The position numbers were made by a program, and so were the translations under genes. Positions 20,651 to 34,924 of a stretch of 64,000 nt of DNA are shown one piece after another (positions within the stretch are counted from its first letter, which is position 1; every line of letters begins with the position of its first letter). The stretch spans positions 1-64,000 of the forward strand of contig JAIOPV010000023.1 of NCBI GenBank assembly GCA_021413735.1, in the 5' to 3' direction. The notes under the pieces are model-generated. The model was not told the DNA's origin. It did no database searches and saw only the letters and a program-made list of their open reading frames with translations. Source of the DNA: Planctomycetota bacterium. Lineage in GTDB: Bacteria; Planctomycetota; Planctomycetia; Gemmatales; Gemmataceae.

Positions 20651-21631
20651 TCACTCGAAGTAGTCTTCCGCAGCGGCCTTCTGTTTATCGGTGATCGGCA
20701 CCCTCGCATCGCCGACCAAATCGCGAACCACCACACTTGCCGTTCGCTTCCGCAGTCGGCTCTCGGGCTTCAGAATCAGCCGATGCGCCAGCACGGGCTG
20801 TGCCATTTTTTTCACGTCATCGGGTAACGCAAAATCACGACCACTGACCGCCGCGAGAGCCTGTGCCGTGCGGAACAACGCGATTGACGCACGCGGACTG
20901 CCGCCGAGCAGAATGTCTTCGTGGTTGCGACTCGAATGCACGATTTCGAGGATGTACCGCATCACCTTTTCATCGACGTGAATCGAGCGAATCGCCTCCT
21001 GACACGCCAACACATCCTCGGCAGGAACGACCGTCTTGAGGTCGTCGATGGGGTGCCCTTTCTGCAGCCGTGTGAGCATCTTCCCTTCTTCTTCCCGGCT
21101 CGGATAACCGAGACTCAGCCGCACGAGGAAGCGGTCGAGCTGTGCCTCGGGAAGCGGGAACGTGCCTTCCTGATCGACGGGGTTCTGCGTCGCGATCACC
21201 AGAAACGGCGGCTTCAGTACATACGTCTGCCCGTCGGCGCTGACGCGACGTTCGGCCATTGCTTCGAGGAGTGCGGCTTGCGTTCGCGGTGTGGCGCGAT
21301 TGATTTCGTCAGCGAGCAACGTCTGTGCGAACACCGGTCCGGGGCGGAACTCGAACTCGGTGGTCTTCTGGTTGAAGATCGACACGCCGGTGACGTCACT
21401 CGGCAACAAATCCGGCGTACATTGGAGGCGTTTGAAGGTGCAGCCAACGCTGCGGGCGAGGGCGCGAGCGAGCATGGTCTTGGCGACGCCGGGCACGTCT
21501 TCGAGGAGGATGTGCCCTTCGGAGAAGTACGCGGCAATGGCGAGTGTGAGTTGCGGTCGCTTGCCGATGATGACCTTCTCGATGTTCGAGATGATTCGGG
21601 CAGCGGTGGCGGCAACGTCGATATCGGGCAT
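20651..21631 (-). CDS. MoxR-family AAA+ ATPase
   Basis: A 326-aa MoxR-type AAA+ ATPase, a chaperone-like machine that usually works with von Willebrand A (DUF58) proteins to mature or remodel other complexes. I chose ATG 21631 (MPDIDVAATAARIISNIEKV), the typical MoxR opening. Motifs are Walker A EDVPGVAKTML, pore/sensor segment TPDLLPSDVTG, Walker B LLADEINRATPRTQAALLEA, sensor 1 ATQNPVDQEGTFPLPEAQLD and sensor 2 LGGSPRASIALFRTAQA. The usual downstream DUF58/vWA partner is absent; the next gene converges. It lies divergent from rtcA, with 214 bases between the start codons. Confidence 0.92.
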   Translation of the reverse strand: MPDIDVAATAARIISNIEKVIIGKRPQLTLAIAAYFSEGHILLEDVPGVAKTMLARALARSVGCTFKRLQCTPDLLPSDVTGVSIFNQKTTEFEFRPGPVFAQTLLADEINRATPRTQAALLEAMAERRVSADGQTYVLKPPFLVIATQNPVDQEGTFPLPEAQLDRFLVRLSLGYPSREEEGKMLTRLQKGHPIDDLKTVVPAEDVLACQEAIRSIHVDEKVMRYILEIVHSSRNHEDILLGGSPRASIALFRTAQALAAVSGRDFALPDDVKKMAQPVLAHRLILKPESRLRKRTASVVVRDLVGDARVPITDKQKAAAEDYFE

Positions 21632-21845
21632 GGAGGCTTTCCGGCGGATGGATTCGCTCAGAATATCGCGCACGACGGTACAACGACGCTCGCGAACGGC
21701 GATTCCACAATGTGGAGCCGTCCGTGCCCGAGCGCCAGCGAGGACAGCGAAAAACCTCGCTGGCGCTCAGGCTCTGCCACCGCGACAATCAGTGCTACAA
21801 TTCGACGACACTGAACCGCGTTCCCTGTCTGCGTGTCCGTCCAAC

Positions 21846-22892
21846 ATGAGCAGCAGCATGATCGAACTCGACGGCTCGGAAGGCGAAGGCGGAGGACAAA
21901 TCCTTCGGTCGGCGCTCGCGCTGTCGATCCTCACCGGCAAGCCGTTCAAGCTCATCAACATTCGCGCCAACCGCTCGAAGCCTGGCCTCGCACCGCAGCA
22001 CGTCATGTGCGTGAAAGCGGCGGGCACCATCAGCGGCGCCACGTACAAGGGAGCCAGCAACGGTTCCGCGGTGCTGTATTTCGAGCCAAACGCGGTGAAG
22101 CCCGGCAAGTACGTCTTTAGCATCGGCACCGCTGGCGCAACGAGTCTTGTTCTGCACACCATCGCGTTGCCGTTGGCGTTGCGGGGCAGTTCGTTGAGCG
22201 ATATCACCATCACGGGCGGCACACACAACACCCACGCACCGTGCTACCACTTCCTCGAAACGACATGGACTGCCTATCTCCGACGAATGGGCATCGTGAT
22301 CGACGTCGAGATGATCCGCCCCGGCTTCTATCCACGAGGCGGCGGCGAGATTCGGGCCGTCATCCATCCGTGTAATCGCGTGAACGGTCTCAGCATCCTG
22401 ACGTGCCCCGAACTGACCACGGCAGGCGGCTTCAGTGCATTCGCGGATCTGCCGGAATCAGTGGGTCGCAGGCAAGCTCGTCGGCTGTCGGTGCGGTTGA
22501 AGTCAGAAGGGATCGAGTCGCACATTCCGGTGGAGCAGTGGGAAGCCGCGAATCCGGGAACGGTCGCTGCGGTGATCTTCCGACAGGCTCCGGTGCCACC
22601 GCTGTTCTTCGGATTGGGGGAACGCGGCAAGCCTGCGGAATCCGTCGCCGACGAAGCTGCCGACGAAGCGATTGCGTTTCGTGATGCGAAGTGCCCGGTT
22701 GATCCGCACTCGGCCGATCAGTTGCTGTTGCCGTTGGTGTTCAGCCCGGATGCGAGCGAGTATCGGACGTCGGAAATCACACGGCATCTGACGACGAACA
22801 TTGCAACTGTGCGGAAGTTCGTGGATCGTGATGTGACATTGGATGCAGAAGAGGGATACGCCGGAATCGTGCGCATTCCCGCTGTGGTATAA
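21846..22892 (+). CDS. rtcA: RNA 3'-terminal phosphate cyclase
   Basis: A 348-aa RtcA-type cyclase that converts RNA 3'-phosphates to 2',3'-cyclic phosphates using ATP, acting in RNA end repair. Family blocks are DGSEGEGGGQILRSALALS at the N-terminus, ANRSKPGLAPQHVMCVKAA, GGTHNTHAPCYHFLE and RPGFYPRGGGEIRAVI. The catalytic His is in EITRHLTTN (His314), where the adenylated intermediate forms. The first ATG (21846) and one four codons later are both possible, and no strong Shine-Dalgarno is seen. The next gene starts 28 bases downstream in the same direction, so it is probably co-transcribed with the FtsH-like operon. No rtcB or rtcR is present here. Confidence 0.92.
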   Translation: MSSSMIELDGSEGEGGGQILRSALALSILTGKPFKLINIRANRSKPGLAPQHVMCVKAAGTISGATYKGASNGSAVLYFEPNAVKPGKYVFSIGTAGATSLVLHTIALPLALRGSSLSDITITGGTHNTHAPCYHFLETTWTAYLRRMGIVIDVEMIRPGFYPRGGGEIRAVIHPCNRVNGLSILTCPELTTAGGFSAFADLPESVGRRQARRLSVRLKSEGIESHIPVEQWEAANPGTVAAVIFRQAPVPPLFFGLGERGKPAESVADEAADEAIAFRDAKCPVDPHSADQLLLPLVFSPDASEYRTSEITRHLTTNIATVRKFVDRDVTLDAEEGYAGIVRIPAVV

Positions 22893-22920
22893 TGCCACAA
22901 CCTCGGAGCCAAAATTCACG

Positions 22921-23604
22921 ATGTCGAATCCCGTGGCTAATGCCCTGACGATGCAGATTGCTCAGGTCGTTCCTTGCACCGAAGCAGAGGGGCCAGGGAA
23001 GCGGTTCGCGATCTGGTTTCAGGGTTGTCCGTTGCGGTGCCCAGGCTGCTGCAACCCCGAGTTCCTTCCGTTCAAGGGCGGGCAGACGAAAACCGCCGCC
23101 GAGATGGTCGAATGGTTGACACGCACCCGCGATGAATCGGGAATCGAAGGAATCACGCTTCTCGGTGGCGAACCGTTCGCACACGCGCTGCCTGCGGTCG
23201 CGCTGGCCCGAACCGCCAAGCAGCTCGGTTTGTCTGTGATGGTGTTTAGCGGATACGTCCTTGAAGATTTGCGAGCGAAAGCCGAACCCGAGATTGCGGA
23301 ACTGATCGACCTCACGGATATTCTGGTTGATGGCCCTTACGACCGCGATAAACCGGACACCGAACGCAGATGGATTGGTTCAACCAATCAGCGAATTCAC
23401 TTCCTCACAAATCGCTACCAGTTCGATGAACAGTGGCGAAAGAAAAACACGCTCGAGATTCGAGTTATCGGTCGCGAGATCAGCGTGAATGGTTTTCCGG
23501 CGAAGGATGCTGTAGGCTTGTGGAAGGGATGGACACGTAAGAAACCACTCCCGCTGGCGACACCAACTTCGTCGCCGGATTCGCGAGGGGCTGACTCGAA
23601 ATGA
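22921..23604 (+). CDS. 4Fe-4S single-cluster radical-SAM-like (NrdG-type) protein
   Basis: A 227-aa protein with the radical-SAM cluster motif CxxxCxxC at Cys36, Cys40 and Cys43 (GCPLRCPGC). GGEP follows (TLLGGEPFAHALPAVALA), as in NrdG/PflA-type activases. Starting at ATG 22921 puts the cluster close to the N-terminus as in that family. The middle block LTDILVDGPYDRDKPDTERR matches the anaerobic ribonucleotide reductase activase group. No glycyl-radical enzyme is in the window. It overlaps the next gene by 4 bases and opens the FtsH-like operon after rtcA. It may install a radical-based modification in an operon partner; that is inference. Confidence 0.82.
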   Translation: MSNPVANALTMQIAQVVPCTEAEGPGKRFAIWFQGCPLRCPGCCNPEFLPFKGGQTKTAAEMVEWLTRTRDESGIEGITLLGGEPFAHALPAVALARTAKQLGLSVMVFSGYVLEDLRAKAEPEIAELIDLTDILVDGPYDRDKPDTERRWIGSTNQRIHFLTNRYQFDEQWRKKNTLEIRVIGREISVNGFPAKDAVGLWKGWTRKKPLPLATPTSSPDSRGADSK

Positions 23605-24770
23605 CCCGTGCCGTCGTACCGCCGCGTCCGCCAGAGCCAGACGGCCCACGGCAGGTCTCGAAGTTCGAGTTCAACCTGCTGCGCATCCTGCGGTTCATGG
23701 TCGGGCACTTCCCCGCAGACCAGGGAATGCAGCTCGTTCGCGCCGCCGTCAACCGACCGGAATGCCTCAGTGCAGGGGCGGTTGATCTCATCAAGGACAC
23801 GCTTGGCAAGGCGTGCATCCTGTTTCTCGTACGGCAGGGTGCGTGGCGGAACGACAAATACCTCCGCGAAAACAACCCAACGCCGGGCCGCGTGTGGGAA
23901 CGAATCCCGCTCGAAGAACGCAGTCTGATGTTCTCGCGGCCCGTGCTGGAATTCTTGCTGTGGGCGACCGCCGAGAAGGTGAACGACACGAAAGCCGCGT
24001 GGGATGCCGCCCCGAAAGCTCTGACCCCAGCCGACGAACTGTTCTTCTGGCTGGCCTTCGACGCCACTCGCACCGATCCCGATTTGCTCGCGGCGTTGCG
24101 AAAGAAAGACGCCTTCCGGCTGAATCCGCTGTGTTGGGCGACGTTCCCAGGCGACATGGTTGAAGGCGACGAAATTACGCCGCCGAACTTCTCGCCGATG
24201 TTCGAGGGACAACGGGCGGTGTTGCTTGAATGCCTCCAACCGCACCTGATGCATCGTTGGATTCGTTCGGAGCGAATGAAGGGTCAGATGGGCGACTGGA
24301 AGAAAATGCGGCAGCAGGGTCGCGCCGAGTTCGCGGCACTGCAAGCGTTCCTGAAGGCCGCTGCGGAGGCGAAACGCACGGACCTTGCGCGGTTCGTGCT
24401 TCGCACCAACGCCGCTCTGTTCACGAGCGAGATGACGCCCGTGTTCTGGACCGGCGGCCTCCAAGGAAGCGGTCCACCGCGACTCGCTGATCGACTTGAT
24501 ACGCAGCGTTCAGCGCTCGCTGTTCCTCGGCAAATGGACATTCTCGAAGGCTGGCAGAACGCGGCGTTGAACATCGGCTACTTCGACGAGGGCTACCAGG
24601 CGAGCCAGATGTGGAAAGCCGATTGGGAAGCCGTGAATGGGAATCGTGTCGCGGCTCGTGCCCGTGCGACCGTGGAGATGCTGGAACCGCTCCGCGGTCC
24701 GGTTGGCGGACCGCCCGCAGCGAACCCCGCAGCCGCACCAAACGATAACCCCGAAGGCAGCCCTGGTTGA
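23601..24770 (+). CDS. Orphan protein of the FtsH-like operon (389 aa)
   Basis: A 389-aa soluble, mostly helical protein with no domain I recognise. Its ATG overlaps the previous stop by four bases, so it is translationally coupled to the radical-SAM-like gene. Features are a conserved-looking N-terminal block (SKFEFNLLRILRFMVGHFPA), aromatic-rich helices (LEFLLWATAEKVNDTKAAWD, PADELFFWLAFDATRTDPDL), and a C-terminal helix (GYQASQMWKADWEAVNGNRV). The last ~22 residues are Pro/Ala/Asn-rich and probably disordered. There are no transmembrane segments. The coupling implies a shared function with the AAA+ protease; it could be one of the 'X' domains reported in FtsH ternary systems. Confidence 0.75.
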   Translation: MTRAVVPPRPPEPDGPRQVSKFEFNLLRILRFMVGHFPADQGMQLVRAAVNRPECLSAGAVDLIKDTLGKACILFLVRQGAWRNDKYLRENNPTPGRVWERIPLEERSLMFSRPVLEFLLWATAEKVNDTKAAWDAAPKALTPADELFFWLAFDATRTDPDLLAALRKKDAFRLNPLCWATFPGDMVEGDEITPPNFSPMFEGQRAVLLECLQPHLMHRWIRSERMKGQMGDWKKMRQQGRAEFAALQAFLKAAAEAKRTDLARFVLRTNAALFTSEMTPVFWTGGLQGSGPPRLADRLDTQRSALAVPRQMDILEGWQNAALNIGYFDEGYQASQMWKADWEAVNGNRVAARARATVEMLEPLRGPVGGPPAANPAAAPNDNPEGSPG

Positions 24771-24819
24771 TGTCATTCGTCTGATTCTTTCTCGTGACCT
24801 CTGACCCTTTGGAGCGAAT

Positions 24820-25392
24820 ATGAGCCGAGCTTACCGCATCACCGTGAAGGAATCGGATACCCGCCATCTCAAGGCCGGGGACGAGATCTGCACGCAACTC
24901 GAAATCCTCGAAATCCTGCCACCCGAAGACATGGCCACACTCCTGAAGGAAGAACTCAAGAAACGCGGCTTCGAGGAGCAAGACGACGGCACGATGCTTC
25001 GCAAGGACGGCGAACTCACCGTCAAGATCGACCCGTGTTCCGGCGAAGTGTCGGTCAAGGCCGAGACGGAAGAGACCATTAACCAGGAAGCGAAACGCGA
25101 CGCGACTGGCTTCAACGATGTTGGCCCGAGCGAGAAGAGTCTGCGGGACCGCGTGAAGGATCAACTGAAGTCGGACCTCGACAAGAAGTTCGAGCAGGAA
25201 CAATCGCGTCTGCAAACCAAGGCGACCGAGAAGCTGGAAAAGCACCTGCAAGAGTTGCAGCCGGAAATCTCGGAGGTCGTGAATCAGGTGACTCGCGACG
25301 CTCTCAAGCAGAAGGCCCAACAGATGGGCACCGTGAAAGAGATCAGCGAGGACGCCGAGAGCGGTTCGCTGACGATCAAGGTGGAAGTCTGA
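24820..25392 (+). CDS. Orphan coiled-coil protein of the FtsH-like operon (190 aa)
   Basis: A 190-aa acidic protein with GGAG about seven bases before the ATG. Residues 1-100 form a compact alpha/beta region: YRITVKESDTRHLKAGDEIC at the start and LKKRGFEEQDDGTMLRKDGE, then DPCSGEVSVKAE. A long coiled coil follows (~105-165, with KKFEQEQSRLQTKATEKLEK). It ends in a beta-like segment (SGSLTIKVEV). The small alpha/beta start recalls the DUF1257/DUF2997-type partners of the Ycf46 AAA+ group, but this is only a resemblance. It is followed by an inverted repeat and then the AAA+ gene, and probably acts as an adaptor. Confidence 0.75.
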   Translation: MSRAYRITVKESDTRHLKAGDEICTQLEILEILPPEDMATLLKEELKKRGFEEQDDGTMLRKDGELTVKIDPCSGEVSVKAETEETINQEAKRDATGFNDVGPSEKSLRDRVKDQLKSDLDKKFEQEQSRLQTKATEKLEKHLQELQPEISEVVNQVTRDALKQKAQQMGTVKEISEDAESGSLTIKVEV

Positions 25393-25514
25393 GCTATCGG
25401 CTGTCAGCTATCAGCTTTCAGCCAAACAACCAAATCCTCAACCCGAATTCTCCGGAGCGATTGCAGATCGCCCGGAATGTCTGGCTGAAAGCTGATAGCT
25501 GACAGCTGAGAGCT
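25392..25514. repeat. Inverted repeat, 'agctatcagctttcagc' unit
   Basis: Arms 25392-25424 and 25482-25514 are complementary over 33 bases with two mismatches. The core unit gtcagctatcagctttcagc contains repeated agct words. It lies between two genes of the FtsH-like operon and could form a large hairpin in the message, setting expression ratios. Confidence 0.88.
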
Positions 25515-25522
25515 TCCAAGCA

Positions 25523-27751
25523 ATGAGCATCATTGTCACCGAGAAAGAACTGCCCAAGAGCCTGACGCCCGAACAGGCCGTCGAAGCAGCCTACGCTCAG
25601 GAGTTGGCCGACATCGCCAGCAAACTGATTCGCGGGTTGCCCGTGCTCGTCGAGTGCGACAAGGAACTCGCCCCGTACCTGTTCCTCAACGTGCGGAACC
25701 GGCTGCGCGAGGCGAAGCTCCAGTGCATCTACCTCGACGGTCGGCAACGCGACCCACAACAGGGCGCGGTTCCGATGGGTCTCATCGGAACCATGATCGC
25801 CCAACTTCGCGACGCCGTTCGCGGTGCCGTCGAGCGTCGCGTTGTCGTGTTGCCACACCTTGACCTGCTCACCACGAGCCAGGGCGGCCTCACTGGCGAA
25901 GCACGCGAAGTGATCCCGCTGCTGTATGAGAACCCCGAACTCGTGTGGCTCGGCTTCAAAGACCCGTCGTTCCCGCTGCCGAAGGTCATCGAGAACTTGT
26001 TCCCGTGTTGGACCGGCATCCTCGGCACTTCGCGGAATCGACTTCGCCAGCTCGTCACGCAATCCGAGAGCCGCAAGTTCGGTCGCGATTTCTCGCCGTG
26101 GCAGCTTTACAAATACGTGTCTGGCGTGAACGCTGTGCGACTCCGACGACTGCTCTCGACACTCGAAGGCGAGGACTACCCTGCCGATCCGAAGCGTGCG
26201 TACTCACAAATTCGGCAGGCGACGCTCAGCGGTCACATGGAGATTCCGAGCATCGATCTTGAGAAGGACATCGGCGGCTACTCGAAGGTGAAGTCGAAGC
26301 TGCGGGCCGAGATCCTCGACACTCTCCAGAAACGCGACAAGGCCACCGACCCCGAAGAGATCGCGCGACTCGAAGAGTTGATTCCTCGTGGCATGATCTT
26401 CTGGGGACAGCCGGGCACCGGCAAGACGTACTTCGCGAAGGCGATTGCTGCGAGCATCGGCGCTGCGATCACGATTGTGTCGGGTCCGGAACTGAAGTCG
26501 AAGTGGGTCGGCGAATCGGAAGAGAACCTCCGACAGATCTTCCACAAGGCTCGGCAGTCGGCACCGTCGATCATCGTGTTCGACGAAATCGACTCGTTCG
26601 CCACGGCTCGCGGAACGTACACTGGCAGCGGCGTCGAGCATTCGATGGTGAACCAACTCCTCACCGAAATGGACGGCTTCCACAAGGACGAACTCGTCTT
26701 CATTGTGGGCACCACCAACTTCGTGGAATCGCTCGACCCCGCGTTGTTGCGGCCGGGCCGCTTCGAGTTCCACTTGCACATTCCGTATCCGGACGACGAC
26801 GACCGCCGTGCGATCTTCGAGATCTACAACAAGAAGATGAAGCTCCAGTTCACGCCGGACGCGATGGAATACGCCATCAACCGCACCGGAAACAGATACA
26901 TCACGTCGACCGGCACGGCGTTCAGCGGTGACCACCTGAACGCCCTGTGTCGGGCCGTGGCCCGGTTGCGGATGCGAGAGAACATCACCGGCGAAACGAC
27001 GCCGAAGCTGATCGAGAAGGCGATCACGGAGTTCGATGAGAAGATCGAGGTTCACGAGAAAGATTTGCCGATGGTGGCCACGCACGAGGCGGGCCACTTC
27101 CTCGTGTCGATCTTCTGTCCGAACCACGCGCCGCCCGAAAAGGTGACGATCCAGAGCGACATGCCGTGGGCACCGTTCTTCACGCAGTTCAAGCACGAGA
27201 AGAAGCGGATCGGCATGAGCCGCAACGAGATGCTCGACCAGGTCACCGTGCTGTACGGCGGCATCGAGGCGGAACGGTTGCTCATTGGCGACGTGTCCAC
27301 GGGCGCGAGCGGCATGGGCGACCCGAAATCGGATCTGGCGCGAGCGTCGCTGTTCGCGGAGTACATGGTCGAGGTGTGCGGCATGTCGAACCTTGCGGCG
27401 CCGCTGCGGTCTTTCCGGGATCACAAGGGCGACCGCCAGGTGCTCTCGGGCTCGATGGCGGAAGCGATCGACCGGCAGGTGAACACGCTGATCGTTGAGG
27501 CACAAGCGAAGGCGGCCGCGATTTTGACGAAGCACAAGGCCGACCTCATCAAGCTCCGCGACGAGTTGATTGAGAAAAAAACGATTGAGGGGGCGCGGGT
27601 TCACGAGTTCATTGAGGAGTTGCGGGCACGCTACCCGAAGGATGTGGGTGCGCCTGGACCAGAGGTGAAACTCGGAGCGGGTGCAGGCACCACGACCGAT
27701 GTGAATGCAACGCCCGACAAGAAGCCCACGAAGAAGAAGGACGCGGAATAA
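25523..27751 (+). CDS. Soluble FtsH-like AAA+ zinc metalloprotease
   Basis: A 742-aa AAA+ protease of the FtsH/M41 type. An AAA+ module carries Walker A GQPGTGKT at 295-302, Walker B IIVFDEID (Asp354, Glu355) and the second region of homology DPALLRPGRFEF with arginine fingers. The M41 peptidase follows, with zinc motif HEAGH at 521-525 and a third ligand Asp in GDPKSDLARAS. Unlike canonical FtsH it has no transmembrane helices. Instead, residues 1-250 resemble a degenerate second AAA-like module (VLVECDKELAPYLFLNVRNR, VVVLPHLDLL). It ends in a Lys-rich tail. A cytosolic, ATP-driven protease acting with its operon partners is likely; the substrate is unknown. Confidence 0.92.
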   Translation: MSIIVTEKELPKSLTPEQAVEAAYAQELADIASKLIRGLPVLVECDKELAPYLFLNVRNRLREAKLQCIYLDGRQRDPQQGAVPMGLIGTMIAQLRDAVRGAVERRVVVLPHLDLLTTSQGGLTGEAREVIPLLYENPELVWLGFKDPSFPLPKVIENLFPCWTGILGTSRNRLRQLVTQSESRKFGRDFSPWQLYKYVSGVNAVRLRRLLSTLEGEDYPADPKRAYSQIRQATLSGHMEIPSIDLEKDIGGYSKVKSKLRAEILDTLQKRDKATDPEEIARLEELIPRGMIFWGQPGTGKTYFAKAIAASIGAAITIVSGPELKSKWVGESEENLRQIFHKARQSAPSIIVFDEIDSFATARGTYTGSGVEHSMVNQLLTEMDGFHKDELVFIVGTTNFVESLDPALLRPGRFEFHLHIPYPDDDDRRAIFEIYNKKMKLQFTPDAMEYAINRTGNRYITSTGTAFSGDHLNALCRAVARLRMRENITGETTPKLIEKAITEFDEKIEVHEKDLPMVATHEAGHFLVSIFCPNHAPPEKVTIQSDMPWAPFFTQFKHEKKRIGMSRNEMLDQVTVLYGGIEAERLLIGDVSTGASGMGDPKSDLARASLFAEYMVEVCGMSNLAAPLRSFRDHKGDRQVLSGSMAEAIDRQVNTLIVEAQAKAAAILTKHKADLIKLRDELIEKKTIEGARVHEFIEELRARYPKDVGAPGPEVKLGAGAGTTTDVNATPDKKPTKKKDAE

Positions 27752-27754
27752 ACC

Positions 27755-27780
27755 TTTAGCGGCAGCCCCCACGGGGCTGC
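27755..27780. repeat. REP-like hairpin with TTTAGC tail
   Basis: TTTAGC at 27755-27760 precedes a hairpin gcagcccc-cac-ggggctgc (27762-27780). It lies four bases after the stop of the FtsH-like gene, where it might protect or terminate the transcript. No T-run follows. Confidence 0.72.
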
Positions 27781-27819
27781 GCCGCCGCGAACATCAACCG
27801 CACCGGAGATAGCAGACAC

Positions 27820-28077
27820 ATGGCCGAAATGATTATCATGCTTCGCCGCGATCCGAACACGGGCAAGCAGAACATCATCATCAAGCTGGATTCCGATCCG
27901 GATGCTTTGCCGCACGAACACGAGCAGATGCACCGCAAACTCGTCGAGAAGGTCACGGGCTTGAAGCCGGAAGACTTCGGCGAGGTGATCGTCGAACGCG
28001 AGTCGGAGGCGCAGCCGAGCCAGCCCACGACGACACCAAACGAGCCACAGAAGCAAAAGACCAGCAACAAGGGATAA
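27820..28077 (+). CDS. 85-aa protein of the FtsH-like operon
   Basis: An 85-aa protein between the AAA+ protease and the 1161-aa gene. It begins with a beta-hairpin-like repeat (MAEMIIMLRRDPNTGKQNII, then IKLDSDPDALPHEHEQMHRK) and has a helix rich in His, Glu and Lys. It ends in a disordered Gln/Pro/Thr tail. It resembles the small DUF2997-like proteins that accompany AAA+ proteins in other bacteria, but is not clearly a member. GGAG lies twelve bases upstream of the ATG, a weak site. Position and size suggest a tag, adaptor or substrate for the neighbouring protease; that is inference. Confidence 0.7.
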   Translation: MAEMIIMLRRDPNTGKQNIIIKLDSDPDALPHEHEQMHRKLVEKVTGLKPEDFGEVIVERESEAQPSQPTTTPNEPQKQKTSNKG

Positions 28078-28086
28078 CCAATCGCG

Positions 28087-28132
28087 TAGCCGCGACCGAA
28101 GGGAGCGCGAACGCTCCCTTCGGTCGCGGCTA
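28087..28132. repeat. Perfect 21-bp-stem hairpin
   Basis: tagccgcgaccgaagggagc at 28087 onwards is exactly complementary to 28112-28132, with a 4-base loop (28108-28111). It could fold into a very stable hairpin between the 85-aa and the 1161-aa genes of the operon. Confidence 0.88.
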
Positions 28133-28174
28133 ATCGGACATCTCACCACGACCACACAACCCCCGTCCGAACCC

Positions 28175-31100
28175 ATGATCCTGCTGTTTCCGAACCTGGA
28201 CACCCTGCGGCTCGCGCTGACGAGCAGCATCGTTCCCGCCGACGTGACCCTCGCCCCCGCTGCGGTCACGCTCGACGACCAGGGGAAGATCTACCTTGAA
28301 TCAACCGCGTCGCTCAACAAGACGGTCATCAAGAACCTCGACAAGATCGGCGTCAAAGGCTCGAAGCGGCACGCCACCGACACGCCCGAAGACGTCACCT
28401 GCTGGCCGCAAGTGCTGCCGGTCACGCGTGAGTCGGGCACGCCGACGGTCTCGAATCAGGCTCCCGTTTTGTTCGAGCTTTCGGATGCCGACGATCTGCC
28501 GACTCTGGTCACGGAAATGCTCAGGCTCGGCAACGATCGGCAGGGGTTCCGGTGGTTCGCTGCGCCGGGCGACGCCGACACCAAGCGTGTTTTGCTGCGA
28601 GTGATTGGCCCGCCGTACTACACGCTGCTTCGGGCGATGGACAAGACCGCAGCCGGCACAAAAGGCACCGTTCGTGCTTACCTCGAACGTGCTCCGCGAG
28701 TGTGGGTCGAACTCGGAAGCACGCACCCACTCGCGAACCAGATTCGTGTCGCGGATCGACAATTGCTGTTGATCCGCGAGCCACGCGAATGGGTGTATCT
28801 CGACGAAGCGGCGTTCCAGGATGTCTACGACATCATGCAGTTCAAGCTACCGACGGCCCCCGTCGGCTGGACTGAGACGAAAGCGCCGAAGAAGATGTCG
28901 GTGCCGATGCGGCTCACCGCCGGGAACGCCGCCGACATTCCGGAACTGTGGGTGCTGCGCGAGAACGCCGTCGAACAGCTCGACGTGCTCGTTCGCGATT
29001 CCGACGACCGCCTCACGCAACGACTCATGTTCGCGGTCGCTGCCGACGCGAAGGGCAACCGCACGGTGGTACTGCGGACCCGCCCGTCGAAACTCGCACC
29101 GCCGGCGTTGCCGCTCGAAAACGCGCTCGGCTTCAAACCGTTCTGGAAGTTGCCAAACCTGTTCGTGCCCGTCGGCAGGCGACTTCACCCGACGCTGCGC
29201 CGCGACGCCGTTCGGCGACTGCTCGCGGACGACGCCGATCAGGTCGTGTGGCTCTACCCCGACGAGAACGGCAAGTTCATCCCCGAGAGCGTGCCGGACG
29301 GCGCGTTCCGTTCGCTGGAAGACTGGGTCGATTACGTCATCGAGGCGGAGCAGAAGCCGCTCGGGGCGTGGATCGAAGCCACGCGATTCGATTTCGACCA
29401 CTTCATCTGCAAGGACGCATCTGGGCCGAAGACCAAGCCCGACAAACCCGAACGCGACCCGAAGGCGAAAGACGAAGACGACGCTCGTGGGCCGAAGACG
29501 AACGCACCACAGCCGAAGACAACCGGCAAGGGCAAGACCGTTGGGCCGCGAACCACAACCGACTTCCTGCCGCAAACGGAAATCGTCAAGCCGCCGAGCG
29601 AGTGGAAACTGCGTCGCGAAGAACTGGAGAAGCAGTTCCTCGCGGTCGAGGGCGGGCTTGATGCTCCCGAACGTGTCGCGTTGTGGCCGGAACTCGCGAT
29701 CGCCAGCACTGGCATGAACGACCCGCCCGAAGCTGCGGTGTGCTGGTTGAATGCGATGTGGGATGCCGACCCGATTCCGCCCGAATGGATTGGCGGCTGG
29801 GTTCGCAGCGAATTGCTCGCGACCGGGGGCAGCATACGCGCCGAGGAGTTCGACAAGCGGCTCGCGAACCCCGCTCCTGGGCAAGTTGAAACTCGGCAGG
29901 TCGTGGCGAGCTTCCTCTGGCTCGCGAGCCAGAACCCGGTGCCGCCGTGGCTCACGGCGCGGCTGCCGGTCGTGCAGAAGTTCCTTGAACAGCACGAACA
30001 GGCGCTTCCGGTGCGGGCGGTCTGGCTAATGGGCTTCCGCCTCGCGCAACTCTCCGGGGCAGACGTCCTCGGGTTGGCCCGCGTGCGCGACCGCGTTCTT
30101 CAACGGTTGCTTGAACAAGGGCTGACTGCCGAGAAGGATTTGCCGAGCTTCCTGCGGTTCGCCGGGCACAAGGATTCCGAGCGAATGCGGATTGTTCGCG
30201 ACAAGTCGATGGAGCTTCACGCGGCCGTTCGGAAGTGGACAGAAATCATACCCGTGAACCTGCCGTATGTCGATCTGCTGTTCGCGTTCGCCCTCGCGAA
30301 ACTGCAAGAGAGCACGCAGGCGAAGAAGTTGGTTGAGGATGCCCGCAAGGTGATGGAGAAGCCGGTTCCGGCGTCGTGGCAGGATAACAAGCACTTCGAG
30401 GCGGTCGTGTCGGCCGTCACGCAGAACTTCCTGTTCAAGGCGTTCAAGTATCGTGTCGATCAGGTGCTGGCCGGCAAGCCGCACACGGGGCAGATGTCGG
30501 CGGAGCTCGTCGCGGACCTCGAAGAGATCGGTAGCAAGGGCAAGTCGGGCGGCACGAACAACCCGTACCTGCGGGCGGATTACGTGATTGGCCGCATGCG
30601 GGAACAGTCGCGCATCATCGAACCGCAGGAGCGGCTCGACCCGTATGCGTACTGGACCAAGAATCAGGACGCACTCAAGAAGGAGCTGGCGGAGCTTCAC
30701 GCGATCAAGGAGCCCGGGCGCCTGGCAGACAAAATCCGCAAGCTCTACAAGGAAGGAGTCGCGGGCAAGACCACGAAGGAAGTGCAGTTCTTGGTGCTTC
30801 ACGAGGCGGTGCCGTTGTCGCACCGCGTTGGCGAGTCGTTCACCGTGGAACTACTGCAACTTGTGCCCGCGGCCCTGGCTGGAGGGCCAACGCCAAACAC
30901 GCCCGAGCCGCCGGACATGCCGAAGAAACAGGGCGAACTGATCGAGCGTTCGCTGTTCATGGCGGGCCACTTCGACCGTGGCGACCTGGTGAAGAAGCTC
31001 GTCGATGAAGTGTCGGAATTGATCCGCAGCAAGTCGGAAGACTCGCGGTTCAAGCTCATCAACGTGGTGGCGGGGCAGTGCCTGCGAAGCCTGAAGAAAC

Positions 31101-31660
31101 TCGGGATGCGTGACGAGATCGACCGTTTCCTGGCGAAACTTCGCAACGAGGTGCTGCGTGGTTCGACGACGGCGGAGTTGAAGAAGAAGCATTCGGCGAA
31201 GCCCGAAATGTGGGGTTCGGTGCTGCAAACGCTACTGAACCTCGCGGCGGGTTGGCTGACGTTCGGCTTGCACGAGCAGGCGGCACCGATTCTGGATGAG
31301 GCCCGCAACGAGTTGCTGAATCCGAACGCGGTGAAGTTGCCGCCGAAGGAATACACGGCACTCGCACAGACGTATGTTTCGGCTCTGGGTCAGGGACCGT
31401 CGGAGACGGGGCTGGCACGGATCACGGAGCTGTTCCGCAAGATGGACGACAAGCGGATCACGAACACGTGGACGACTGCACAATACTACTCGCGGTTCCA
31501 CCTGAACCTTGTGGAAGACGTGATTCGTGCGATTGTGAGCGACGATTTCGCGTTGGGTCCGACGGGTCGGAAGTGGCTCGACGACGACGAGTATTTGGTG
31601 CGAAAGCGCATTCACGCCGACATGCGCCGACACCTCGTGCAACTGGAGAAGGGGCATTGA
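28175..31660 (+). CDS. Giant orphan protein of the FtsH-like operon (1161 aa)
   Basis: An 1161-aa soluble protein that closes the FtsH-like operon, with no catalytic motif I recognise. Residues 1-400 look like several small alpha/beta modules (MILLFPNLDTLRLALTSSIV; APRVWVELGSTHPLANQIRV; LLLIREPREWVYLDEAAFQD). A Lys/Pro/Asp-rich linker covers ~410-470. A long helical, repeat-like half follows (e.g. ARVRDRVLQRLLEQGLTAEK, NLAAGWLTFGLHEQAAPILD), resembling tandem helical-repeat scaffolds. There is no signal peptide or membrane helix. The size and mixed architecture match the large recognition/scaffold proteins of FtsH- or MoxR-centred ternary systems. The start at ATG 28175 lacks a clear Shine-Dalgarno. 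Confidence 0.82.
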   Translation: MILLFPNLDTLRLALTSSIVPADVTLAPAAVTLDDQGKIYLESTASLNKTVIKNLDKIGVKGSKRHATDTPEDVTCWPQVLPVTRESGTPTVSNQAPVLFELSDADDLPTLVTEMLRLGNDRQGFRWFAAPGDADTKRVLLRVIGPPYYTLLRAMDKTAAGTKGTVRAYLERAPRVWVELGSTHPLANQIRVADRQLLLIREPREWVYLDEAAFQDVYDIMQFKLPTAPVGWTETKAPKKMSVPMRLTAGNAADIPELWVLRENAVEQLDVLVRDSDDRLTQRLMFAVAADAKGNRTVVLRTRPSKLAPPALPLENALGFKPFWKLPNLFVPVGRRLHPTLRRDAVRRLLADDADQVVWLYPDENGKFIPESVPDGAFRSLEDWVDYVIEAEQKPLGAWIEATRFDFDHFICKDASGPKTKPDKPERDPKAKDEDDARGPKTNAPQPKTTGKGKTVGPRTTTDFLPQTEIVKPPSEWKLRREELEKQFLAVEGGLDAPERVALWPELAIASTGMNDPPEAAVCWLNAMWDADPIPPEWIGGWVRSELLATGGSIRAEEFDKRLANPAPGQVETRQVVASFLWLASQNPVPPWLTARLPVVQKFLEQHEQALPVRAVWLMGFRLAQLSGADVLGLARVRDRVLQRLLEQGLTAEKDLPSFLRFAGHKDSERMRIVRDKSMELHAAVRKWTEIIPVNLPYVDLLFAFALAKLQESTQAKKLVEDARKVMEKPVPASWQDNKHFEAVVSAVTQNFLFKAFKYRVDQVLAGKPHTGQMSAELVADLEEIGSKGKSGGTNNPYLRADYVIGRMREQSRIIEPQERLDPYAYWTKNQDALKKELAELHAIKEPGRLADKIRKLYKEGVAGKTTKEVQFLVLHEAVPLSHRVGESFTVELLQLVPAALAGGPTPNTPEPPDMPKKQGELIERSLFMAGHFDRGDLVKKLVDEVSELIRSKSEDSRFKLINVVAGQCLRSLKKLGMRDEIDRFLAKLRNEVLRGSTTAELKKKHSAKPEMWGSVLQTLLNLAAGWLTFGLHEQAAPILDEARNELLNPNAVKLPPKEYTALAQTYVSALGQGPSETGLARITELFRKMDDKRITNTWTTAQYYSRFHLNLVEDVIRAIVSDDFALGPTGRKWLDDDEYLVRKRIHADMRRHLVQLEKGH

Positions 31661-33109: not shown

Positions 33110-34405
33110 ATGAGTGAAAGACCCAGAAGCGAACGCCCGAGGAGACTGGCGGACTGGCTCAATCCGACCGGGGCGAAGAAGGTCCACTCCTTGGTGGACA
33201 AGGTTTACAAGCGGAAGAACTTGGAGATGGCCTGGGCTCGGGTCCGGAGTAACGGTGGGGCGGGTGGGGTAGACGGGCAGAGTGTGGTGGAGTTCAAGAG
33301 GGTGCTCGACGAGCAACTCGATCGGCTCGGCCATGAACTTCGCACGGACACCTACCAGCCTTTGCCGGTGCGACGGCACCTGATCCCCAAGGCCGGCCAG
33401 GCGGGGAAGTATCGCGCACTGGGTATCCCGACGATCTACGATCGCGTGTGCCAGCAGGCGTTATTGAACCGCCTGGAACCGATCTTTGAGCCGGTGTTCG
33501 ATGATGCCAGCTTCGGATATCGGAAGGGGAGATCGACAAAGGATGCGTTGAGGAAGATCTGGAAGGAGTTGAACGCGGGGGCAGAATGGATCGTGGACGC
33601 TGACCTGAGAGATTTCTTTGGTTCGGTGGATCACGAGAAGTTGCTGACTCTCGTTGCCCAACGAGTTTCGGATAGTCGGGTGCTCCGTCTCATTCGAGGT
33701 ATGCTCAAAGCCGGCGTGCTGGCCGACGGCCAGCGTCTGCCGACCGAGCAGGGAACACCCCAAGGGGGAGTTATTTCTCCCATGCTCAGTAACGTCCTTT
33801 TGACTCCGTTTGACCGGGAGATGCGTCGCCGAGGCTATCGGCTGACGCGATATGCGGACGATTGGGTGGTCACCTGTAACACACGGGCGGAAGCGCAACG
33901 TGTGTTGGTGGAGGCTACGGCCCTCTTGAAGACGCTGGGCGTGACGTTGAACGCGAGCAAGACGCGCATCGTTCACGTACAATTCGGTTTCGAGTTTCTG
34001 GGGTACAAGATCAAGCGGGGTACGCGGCCATTGCGGCTTGCACCTGGCAAGATTCGTAGCGGCGTCCGTTCTGGCGACCTCTATGCGTATGCCCGGCAGA
34101 AGTCGATCCATCACTTCAAGGACCAGATCCGTCAGCGTACCCGGCGTAAGGCTCCGTTAACCACTCCGGAACTGGTCGCCGAGATCAACCCGGTGATTCG
34201 CGGCTGGGGTTTGTACTATCACAAGGCCCATGTCCGCAAGCTCTTCGCTCAACTCGACCGTTGGATCCTGCGGCGTCTCTGGTCGCATCGGTTCAAGCGG
34301 TGGCGTTGCCGGGGTTGGAAACAACTTCCGGAGCGACATCTCTACGGCGAGTTGGGTCTTGTACGCTTGATCGCACTGATTCCTTCGATTCGCCTTCGCG
34401 AATAG
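33110..34405 (+). CDS. ltrA: Group II intron reverse transcriptase/maturase
   Basis: A 431-aa intron-encoded protein. It reverse-transcribes the intron for mobility and helps it fold and splice. GGAG lies seven bases before the ATG. RT motifs run in order: LIPKAGQAGKYRALGIPTIY, DDASFGYRKGRSTKDAL, DADLRDFFGSVDHEKLL, GTPQGGVISPMLSNVLL, the catalytic YADD in LTRYADDWVV, and FEFLGYKIKRGTRP. A C-terminal maturase (GIIM) domain ends with INPVIRGWGLYYHKAHVRKL. There is no HNH endonuclease domain, so it probably relies on other target-DNA priming. The frame is intact, so the intron may still be mobile. Confidence 0.93.
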   Translation: MSERPRSERPRRLADWLNPTGAKKVHSLVDKVYKRKNLEMAWARVRSNGGAGGVDGQSVVEFKRVLDEQLDRLGHELRTDTYQPLPVRRHLIPKAGQAGKYRALGIPTIYDRVCQQALLNRLEPIFEPVFDDASFGYRKGRSTKDALRKIWKELNAGAEWIVDADLRDFFGSVDHEKLLTLVAQRVSDSRVLRLIRGMLKAGVLADGQRLPTEQGTPQGGVISPMLSNVLLTPFDREMRRRGYRLTRYADDWVVTCNTRAEAQRVLVEATALLKTLGVTLNASKTRIVHVQFGFEFLGYKIKRGTRPLRLAPGKIRSGVRSGDLYAYARQKSIHHFKDQIRQRTRRKAPLTTPELVAEINPVIRGWGLYYHKAHVRKLFAQLDRWILRRLWSHRFKRWRCRGWKQLPERHLYGELGLVRLIALIPSIRLRE

Positions 34406-34417
34406 CGGACCTTTGTG

Positions 34418-34452
34418 AAAGCGGAGTGCGGGAAAACCGCACGCTCCGTTTG
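34418..34452 (+). ncRNA. Group II intron domain V
   Basis: A 34-35-base hairpin: the gcggagtgcgg strand pairs with ccgcacgctccgt, with a GAAA-type tetraloop and a two-base bulge on the 3' strand. The AGC triad lies near its base. This is the shape of the catalytic domain V of group II introns, at the expected place between the maturase gene and the intron 3' end. Confidence 0.75.
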
Positions 34453-34924
34453 AGCGGCGGACGGAGGCCAGCGTGAGGGCAACCGAACGCGCCTCCTCCG
34501 ACCCGACAGAGGTAATCTCCTCCGCTTGCCATCGAGCCGACACTGCTCCCCTCATCGCCCCGCAGAATGATGAGGTCGGAGGGTTTGACCCCTTTGATCT
34601 CCGCGAACCTGAAGTATAAGAAGTACCCGCCGACCCGCTGTTCTGCTGGAAACCAAACAAGCCGGTGTGTGGACAGGGAACGTTCCTCAATCCACGCATG
34701 CCCGAATCGGATCGACCCGCCCGGTATCTCGAGTTCACTTGGGTCCGCGGCTAGCTCTCTCACCAGAACCCCTCGTTCCGTAGCTTCACCTGCACTCCAC
34801 GAGTAGGTGACTCCTTCACCCTTGAAGTCGTCGAAGGTGGAATCGAGGAGTGCCTTCGCCCCTGTGATCACGAGGAAAATGAGCGAGAGCGTACAAAGCC
34901 AAGTCACCGTGCATTTGCCCATGT

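Follow-up and report, generated by a model that had tools for sequence, protein, structure and literature searches.

A seven-gene operon around a soluble FtsH-like protease in Gemmataceae: candidate arm of a dispersed FtsH ternary system

Does an operon built around an FtsH-like protease belong to a biological conflict system, or is it resident machinery of the cell? This question is raised by seven plus-strand genes at positions 21846-31660 of a 64,000-nucleotide stretch of DNA (hereafter, the window; contig JAIOPV010000023.1 of assembly GCA_021413735.1) from a planctomycete of the family Gemmataceae, which an earlier note, made from the sequence alone, had proposed as a candidate conflict system. 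FtsH ternary systems have been described, in the main text of Kaur et al. (2020; PMC7159879), as combinations of MoxR, a divergent vWA protein and an FtsH protein with an extra inactive AAA domain; in the simple type, the vWA is fused to a helical domain and a radical S-adenosylmethionine (SAM) gene is added. We propose, with a probability of about 0.55, that the block in the window represents the protease arm of a simple-type FtsH-vWA-MoxR ternary system in a dispersed form. The pieces of this variant would be inherited vertically, and it may act as a resident protease for stress or quality control that is coupled to RNA damage.

All seven open reading frames (ORFs) lie in series at the places and on the strand that had been reported for them. 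The block is headed by rtcA (21846-22892; 348 aa), which encodes an RNA 3'-terminal phosphate cyclase (PF01137 (RTC), E 2.4e-69; 1qmh, E 1.8e-56), and the second gene encodes an NrdG-like radical SAM protein (22921-23604; Fer4_12, 6.8e-33; Radical_SAM, 5.4e-9). The ORF of the latter opens at 22843; starting at ATG 22921, the protein has 227 aa, which is the median length among 50 relatives, and its overlap with rtcA is probably a matter of start-codon choice. Then follow fvmX6 (23601-24770; 389 aa, mostly helical; PF20004, 1.9e-153), fvmX5 (24820-25392; 190 aa; PF20003, 2.8e-87), the gene for a soluble FtsH-like AAA+/M41 zinc protease of 742 aa (25523-27751; PF00004, 3e-41; PF01434, 2.3e-29), fvmX3-analog (27820-28077; 85 aa; PF20002, 8.1e-36) and fvmX7 (28175-31660; 1161 aa; PF20005, 1.9e-127 over residues 2-390), hereafter X6, X5, FtsH, X3-analog and X7. 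Gaps along the run measure -50, -4, 49, 130, 68 and 97 bases, and the 4-base overlap before X6 (23601-23604) is real. No single-transcript signal was seen in the promoter- and terminator-like counts, which were near the shuffle level.

The family of the block could be established from its smaller and larger companions of FtsH. Since the 389-, 190-, 85- and 1161-aa proteins matched the Pfam models fvmX6, fvmX5, fvmX3-analog and fvmX7, respectively (E 1.9e-153 to 8.1e-36), the name that the earlier note had given, 'FtsH ternary system domain X', turned out to denote the right family. The neighbourhood was also conserved across Gemmataceae, relatives of the FtsH-like gene keeping the same neighbours; thus, neither a lack of model hits nor FtsH-like relatives without these neighbours, the two findings named in advance as telling against the idea, was encountered. 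With simple-type systems, as set out in the main text of PMC7159879, the block shares the FtsH AAA-M41 protein, X5, X6, X7, X3-analog and the radical SAM gene, and the same genome also holds an ivWA with a helical N-domain and a TAKS-type MoxR. The FtsH component carries an active-type AAA domain together with M41 (PF00004, PF01434 and the motif columns below), and the radical SAM gene stands beside the core as in the simple type. In contrast with that type, MoxR and ivWA are unlinked to the block here, rtcA heads it, and inheritance is vertical and near-fixed. The expected layout was therefore only partly borne out: family and partner genes agree with it, whereas the defining MoxR-vWA pair lies outside the operon, on two other contigs. 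Because MoxR, ivWA and FtsH are found on three different contigs and not in one neighbourhood, we filed the system as a dispersed variant rather than a standard member.

The system thus comes in pieces: the seven-gene operon and, elsewhere in the genome, a TAKS-type MoxR, a helical-N/ivWA protein and a second X7. The only ivWA of the genome (contig C150) has PF19997 (7.1e-44) fused to the helical N-domain PF19996 (2.8e-30), and the second fvmX7 lies on contig C130 (E 3e-50). Of 21 PF20030 matches, we selected the MoxR on contig C36 (3.2e-61; P-loop GPPGTAKS) on account of its 73-82% identity to MoxRs located next to X7 or ivWA in relatives; the identity was only 36-38% for the top-scoring match, on C244, which is also of the TAKS type. 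In 4 of 80 block loci (L056, L057, L070 and L077), X7 or its paralogue is immediately followed by a MoxR of the C36 type, and a MoxR of this type abuts ivWA in 3 of 13 ivWA loci. In a 39% GC planctomycete of another family, the ternary genes occur in one run (L129, 345-10209) in the order FtsH, a 916-aa protein, MoxR, ivWA, radical SAM, a 99-aa protein, a 300-aa protein and X5; the 916-, 99- and 300-aa proteins had no Pfam match over the cut-off. In that locus, rtcA is 8.6 kb away from X5, separated from it by further genes, and could be there by chance. Across 95 family genomes, X6 and ivWA were both present in 56, X6 only in 4, ivWA only in 6 and neither in 29 (p 2e-14, uncorrected for kinship). 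Their pairwise distances agreed even though the genes are unlinked (rho 0.95 over 13 genomes; none of 2000 permutations as high); the corresponding values were rho 0.67 for FtsH and MoxR (11 genomes; 0/2000 permutations as high) and rho 0.72 for X6 and MoxR (1/2000 permutations).

The catalytic motifs of the block, of which those of the AAA+ and zinc sites had been described as intact, are kept across relatives. In 45 aligned FtsH proteins, Walker B D354/E355 was conserved in 44, and the alignment columns of HExxH held H521 in all 45 and both E522 and H525 in 44; the third zinc ligand, D604, was present in every protein. The radical SAM cysteines were found in 54/54 and RtcA H314 in 38/38 aligned proteins. 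A looser regular-expression scan had apparently missed HExxH in 7 of 45 FtsH rows and the RtcA motif in 29 of 38, and the column counts show that these misses mostly reflect how the patterns had been written (HExGH, and HxxTN with other residues). It should be noted that proteins outside 0.8-1.25 of the median length were excluded from the profiles, and X5 rows of 150 aa or less from the trees. As in bacterial FtsH (for example, 2ce7), the AAA and M41 domains align over residues 249-699 and the zinc ligands are conserved. Unlike bacterial FtsH, the window protein has no membrane-span stretch (maximum 19-residue hydropathy, 1.45) and carries an extra N-terminal part of 240 aa, in which no P-loop was found among the 45 proteins; it scored 267 bits against the FtsH equivalog cut-off of 600 bits. 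The motif P-x-EHExxH is invariant in 38/38 aligned X3-analog proteins and looks metal-site-like in what is a very small protein. The AlphaFold2 model of X6 was confident and mostly helical (pLDDT, the predicted local distance difference test, 88.5; pTM, the predicted template modelling score, 0.84), without a match in the PDB at E<=0.001; its best VIA match (Z 7.1, root mean square deviation (rmsd) 4.3, 138 residues) lies in the range that VIA calls common for helical proteins. For X7 (pLDDT 80.1, pTM 0.55), the model comprises an alpha/beta N-domain (1-385), a low-confidence linker of ∼80 residues (386-467) and a helical region (474-1160), and it would fit a scaffold. Its best VIA matches were helical repeat proteins (Z 12.0, rmsd 20.9, 438 residues), which we do not take as kinship, and it had no Foldseek match at E<=0.001. 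A vWA domain hidden in X7 was also considered and was not seen in the model, the vWA being a separate gene elsewhere in the genome.

How is the block inherited? X6 was found in 61 of the 95 family genomes at E<=0.001 (60 over the cut-off), in 51 of the 66 better genomes and in 18 of 19 genomes of the same genus, the missing one being 68% complete. Each genome had one match, except two with split or weak second matches. Phylum-wide, X5 occurred in 10 of 392 genomes including our own, and 44 of 45 named loci with X5 were labelled planctomycete: Gemmata, Gemmataceae, Fimbriiglobus, Limnoglobus, Zavarzinella, metagenome-assembled genomes labelled Isosphaera or Singulisphaera, and others that were unresolved. 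The remaining locus was labelled Archangium (contig L178, 3.8 kb); one of its ORFs resembles what we take to be sequencing-adaptor read-through, and this contig was not used as evidence of transfer, although it was retained in the profiles and one tree. All seven genes were in order with gaps <600 bases in 23 of 61 family loci, many other contigs being cut short, and X6 to X7 in 30 of 61, an arrangement that goes beyond chance. When neighbouring pairs were counted in these 61 loci (the remaining loci in each case being cut by contig ends or lacking both genes), X6 and X5 were adjacent in all 58 assessable loci, radical SAM and X6 in 50 (20 genera; 9 not), X5 and FtsH in 44 (9 not), rtcA and radical SAM in 39 (11 not), FtsH and X3-analog in 35 (2 not) and X3-analog and X7 in 30 (4 not). 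An apparent insert between X5 and FtsH in L049, one of the nine non-adjacent cases, is actually a broken FtsH reading frame in that assembly. A second X7 was present downstream in 18 loci, in 17 of them directly adjacent, and the block is split after X5 in some genera. No match could be found for X6 (E 1e-5) or FtsH (E 1e-60) in the plasmid records searched, nor for X5 in the phage records searched. On the basis of this distribution, the block appears to be inherited vertically and to be near-fixed in the genus, unlike a typical conflict system.

The two genes at the head of the block had been regarded as not a standard part of such systems. This holds for rtcA, which is unnamed in the main text of PMC7159879, but not for the radical SAM gene, which that text describes as a member of the simple type. 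We also considered the possibility that the latter is the ordinary NrdG activase of anaerobic ribonucleotide reductase and sits in the operon by chance. The closest NCBIfam model is indeed NrdG (TIGR02491); however, the score of 101.4 bits is under the cut-off of 126.1, and the gene adjoins X6 in locus after locus across 20 genera. Moreover, NrdD (PF13597) was found in none of the 95 family genomes, the same search finding it in 6 of 14 control genomes, and a role as reductase activase is therefore unlikely. The explanation is refuted as stated unless a divergent NrdD escapes PF13597, and we consider it scarcely credible. The substrate of the radical SAM enzyme is more likely a protein partner in the operon.

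With regard to rtcA, the gene was present in 62 of the 95 family genomes, with one match each except in three genomes with two partial matches, and in 39 loci, drawn from 14 genera, it adjoins the radical SAM gene at a median distance of 18 bases. X6 and rtcA were both present in 53 genomes, X6 only in 7, rtcA only in 9 and neither in 26 (p 7.5e-10, uncorrected), and p was only 8e-4 in the 66 better genomes. This conserved neighbourhood and co-occurrence argue against rtcA as a mere passenger, that is, an old neighbour which may share a promoter but no function with the FtsH block. On the X5 tree, adjacency to rtcA was seen in 38 of 56 rows, on both sides of the midpoint root, with 8 changes compared with a shuffled mean of 15.5 (0/500 as low), a pattern that would fit an ancestral link with repeated loss. 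On the other hand, these several changes of state, together with the genomes in which rtcA is separate from the block and lies elsewhere (for example, G051, G006 and G004), favor the passenger explanation, which on balance we regard as rather unlikely. Compared with Rtc RNA repair (RtcA-RtcB-RtcR), the conserved histidine of RtcA is shared, and RtcB is present in 72/95 family genomes with two matches in our own. Unlike in that system, neither rtcB nor rtcR is among the seven genes, and rtcA is joined to a protease operon. No literature on such a link was found, and the main text of PMC7159879, its supplements aside, contains neither 'rtca' nor 'rtcb'; within the limits of that main text, the rtcA link appears to be undescribed.

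Conflict systems are marked by effector displacement, high sequence entropy of effector parts and a lateral or patchy distribution (main text of PMC7159879). Most of our loci hold the same genes in the same order, and among the seven window genes no effector was recognised by Pfam, NEFF1 not having been searched by name. An exception is genus g9, in which inserted genes separate X5 from FtsH: in G030 (L072:4564-6623), the place is taken by one gene with an NYN domain (3.7e-14), one with a HEPN domain (RiboL-PSP-HEPN, 6.1e-7) and one for a 177-aa protein that lacks a Pfam match, and in G029 (L089:1444-3101) by a SUKH-1 gene (SMI1/KNR4, 4.2e-17) and the same kind of 177-aa gene. The RNase domains NYN and HEPN are frequent in toxin and immune systems, and SUKH genes encode immunity proteins; the g9 inserts look like effector swapping. 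Thus, in a few genera, RNA-cutting genes share the operon with an RNA 3'-end enzyme. The scan for inserts covered 8 genes at block ends and 6 inserted genes. Elsewhere, an aminotransferase gene lies between X3-analog and X7 in G094. In L080, FtsH is followed by a gene with a match to a 3'-5' exoribonuclease family (25.1 bits, under the cut-off of 27), and L081 has a near-identical sequence start at this position. Besides this exoribonuclease-like gene, the block-end genes gave matches to RPE65 (L052) and PEPCK (L048), and the other five had no match.

One member of the block is also carried by a phage. When viral contigs were scanned with the X5 alignment, one relative was retrieved, on the 163,635-base contig IMGVR_UViG_3300027819_000007 (L291:5001-5552; also L292-L294). 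It is a full-length fvmX5 of 184 aa (PF20003, 2.7e-45), 43-50% identical to four of seven aligned cellular X5 proteins; identity was 36% with a fifth and 25-28% with the two others, which are distant. We take the contig for a phage since portal (phrog_12, 9.1e-23; PF04860, 1.2e-19), virion structural and tail fibre genes lie nearby, as do genes for Thg1 and a Band_7 protein; ten other proteins of this stretch had only regulatory, sugar or unknown PHROGs, or none. Three proteins of the contig match TIGR02996, two over and one under the cut-off, a domain characteristic of Gemmata and related bacteria. In the tree, a supported group of 17 rows (97/94), otherwise made up of Gemmataceae and L178, includes the phage X5, whose exact place is unsure because its long branch meets that of L178 (pair 90/35). 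None of the other block genes was found in 39.6 kb of the phage contig, and scans of viral contigs with X6, X3-analog and X7 gave no relative. Although a single contig is thin evidence, a decoy or hijacking factor would be expected to resemble this lone, adaptor-like X5 of a phage.

Could the block then be a true anti-invader conflict system? If so, the MoxR-vWA pair would set a threshold, FtsH together with RNase-type or radical-SAM-modified effectors would kill or contain the infected cell, RtcA would limit self-damage, and the phage X5 would be a counter-defence decoy. The block shares its protein families with the system published by Kaur et al. (2020; PMC7159879, main text), and the g9 inserts and the X5 on a portal-, virion- and tail-fibre-bearing contig with TIGR02996 matches, falling among Gemmataceae X5, point in this direction. 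PADLOC also gave matches to IetA (3.7e-30) and TRIP13 for the AAA domain, pVip (1.5e-5) for the radical SAM protein, LeoB (2.9e-4) for the coiled-coil stretch of X5 and RtcR for MoxR, all of which can probably be explained by shared superfamilies or coiled coil. However, X6 is present in one copy in nearly all same-genus genomes, gene order is constant across genera in most loci, none was matched in the plasmid and phage records searched, the inserts are confined to few genera, and the X5 relative comes from one phage only, the scans of viral contigs with the other three proteins being empty. The idea of a conflict system expressed in the earlier note is thus uncertain: a patchy or lateral distribution was not seen in the family, and the inserts and the phage-borne X5 point towards conflict; we regard it as a serious though less likely alternative.

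The reading as a dispersed, resident protease system builds on what was observed directly, namely the composition, order and co-inheritance of the block, its intact catalytic motifs and the absence of NrdD. In this system, FtsH would form a soluble AAA+ hexamer coupling ATP-driven unfolding to zinc proteolysis, with X7 as a putative scaffold and X5 and X6 as candidate adaptor or gate subunits. The MoxR-ivWA pair might arm or remodel the complex, the radical SAM enzyme may modify a protein partner, for which X3-analog and X5 are candidates, and RtcA would act on broken RNA 3' ends within the same response. The phage may have acquired X5, which could plausibly serve it as a decoy or in taking control of the protease. 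The RNase-type genes that occur where the block is interrupted also speak for the proposal. Several points weigh against it. First, 4 genomes have X6 but no ivWA, 2 of them among the 66 better genomes, and 7 of the 60 genomes with X6 over the cut-off have no rtcA at all; rtcA also lies away from the radical SAM gene in 11 loci of 7 genera. Second, kinship alone raises the co-occurrence and distance figures for X6 and ivWA. Third, the degenerate N-terminal AAA domain described for such FtsH proteins was not recovered by profile comparison (0.4% probability), and the scaffold idea for X7 comes from a model with a pTM of 0.55 and no Foldseek match. Fourth, phylum-wide, X6 was over the cut-off in only 2 of 392 genomes including our own (8 at E<=0.001). 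Fifth, the NYN/HEPN or SUKH inserts in one genus and the phage X5 fit an immune view better than plain housekeeping. Finally, FtsH ternary systems are, to our knowledge, known only as a prediction, and we know of no experimental test of any component.

A more far-reaching scenario is that the scattered AAA+ protease complex responds to RNA breakage by way of RtcA, a small subunit modified by the radical SAM enzyme and, in some genera, RNases of the NYN/HEPN type. It would then be a machine for innate immunity or stress, fixed in Gemmata-type bacteria, that large phages disarm or steer via a stolen X5; we consider this improbable. New here are the link to rtcA, a ternary core that is scattered and yet co-inherited, the vertical and near-fixed pattern, the RNase-type inserts in one genus and the phage X5. 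Experimental handles are offered by a near-fixed block in a family with cultured members (Gemmata sp. and Zavarzinella formosa), rtcA at its head, the RNase-type inserts and the lone phage subunit; therefore, the choice between defence and housekeeping is directly testable.

The layout of the block resembles that of the Ycf46-DUF1257(Ycf35)-DUF2997 operon of other planctomycetes, which also comprises radical SAM, AAA, two small proteins and repeat proteins. Homology between the two, suggested by layout and by eye, was unsupported by local hhalign (X5 vs DUF1257, 3.8%; X3-analog vs DUF2997, 0.7%; FtsH N-terminal part vs Ycf46, 0.35% probability), and mismatched control pairs scored no lower (for example, 6.5% for X5 vs DUF2997). 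As profile support extends no further than the generic AAA and radical SAM superfamilies, the two operons are alike in layout only. No DUF1257 match was found in our own genome. Planctomycete loci with Ycf46-like AAA, DUF1257 and DUF2997 genes were L184, L186, L187 and L211-L230, some of them also with radical SAM genes.

Beside the block, on the minus strand, lies a MoxR gene of the ordinary type (20651-21673; AAA_3, 2.9e-63). It was rejected as the ternary partner, its bpMoxR score of 26.9 bits being under the cut-off of 27. The two closest relatives, L048 and L044, also have this MoxR immediately next to the block (91-96%), and homologues of 46-53% lie elsewhere in loci L045, L055, L086 and L073. 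As a separate observation, the ternary-type MoxR of our genome (L272:9339-17251) is preceded on its own strand by genes encoding a HYDIN-like Ig-repeat protein, a calcineurin-like phosphatase and a protein kinase. Just downstream of the block, a group II intron with a reverse transcriptase ORF (RF00029 match) occupies window positions 33110-34541.

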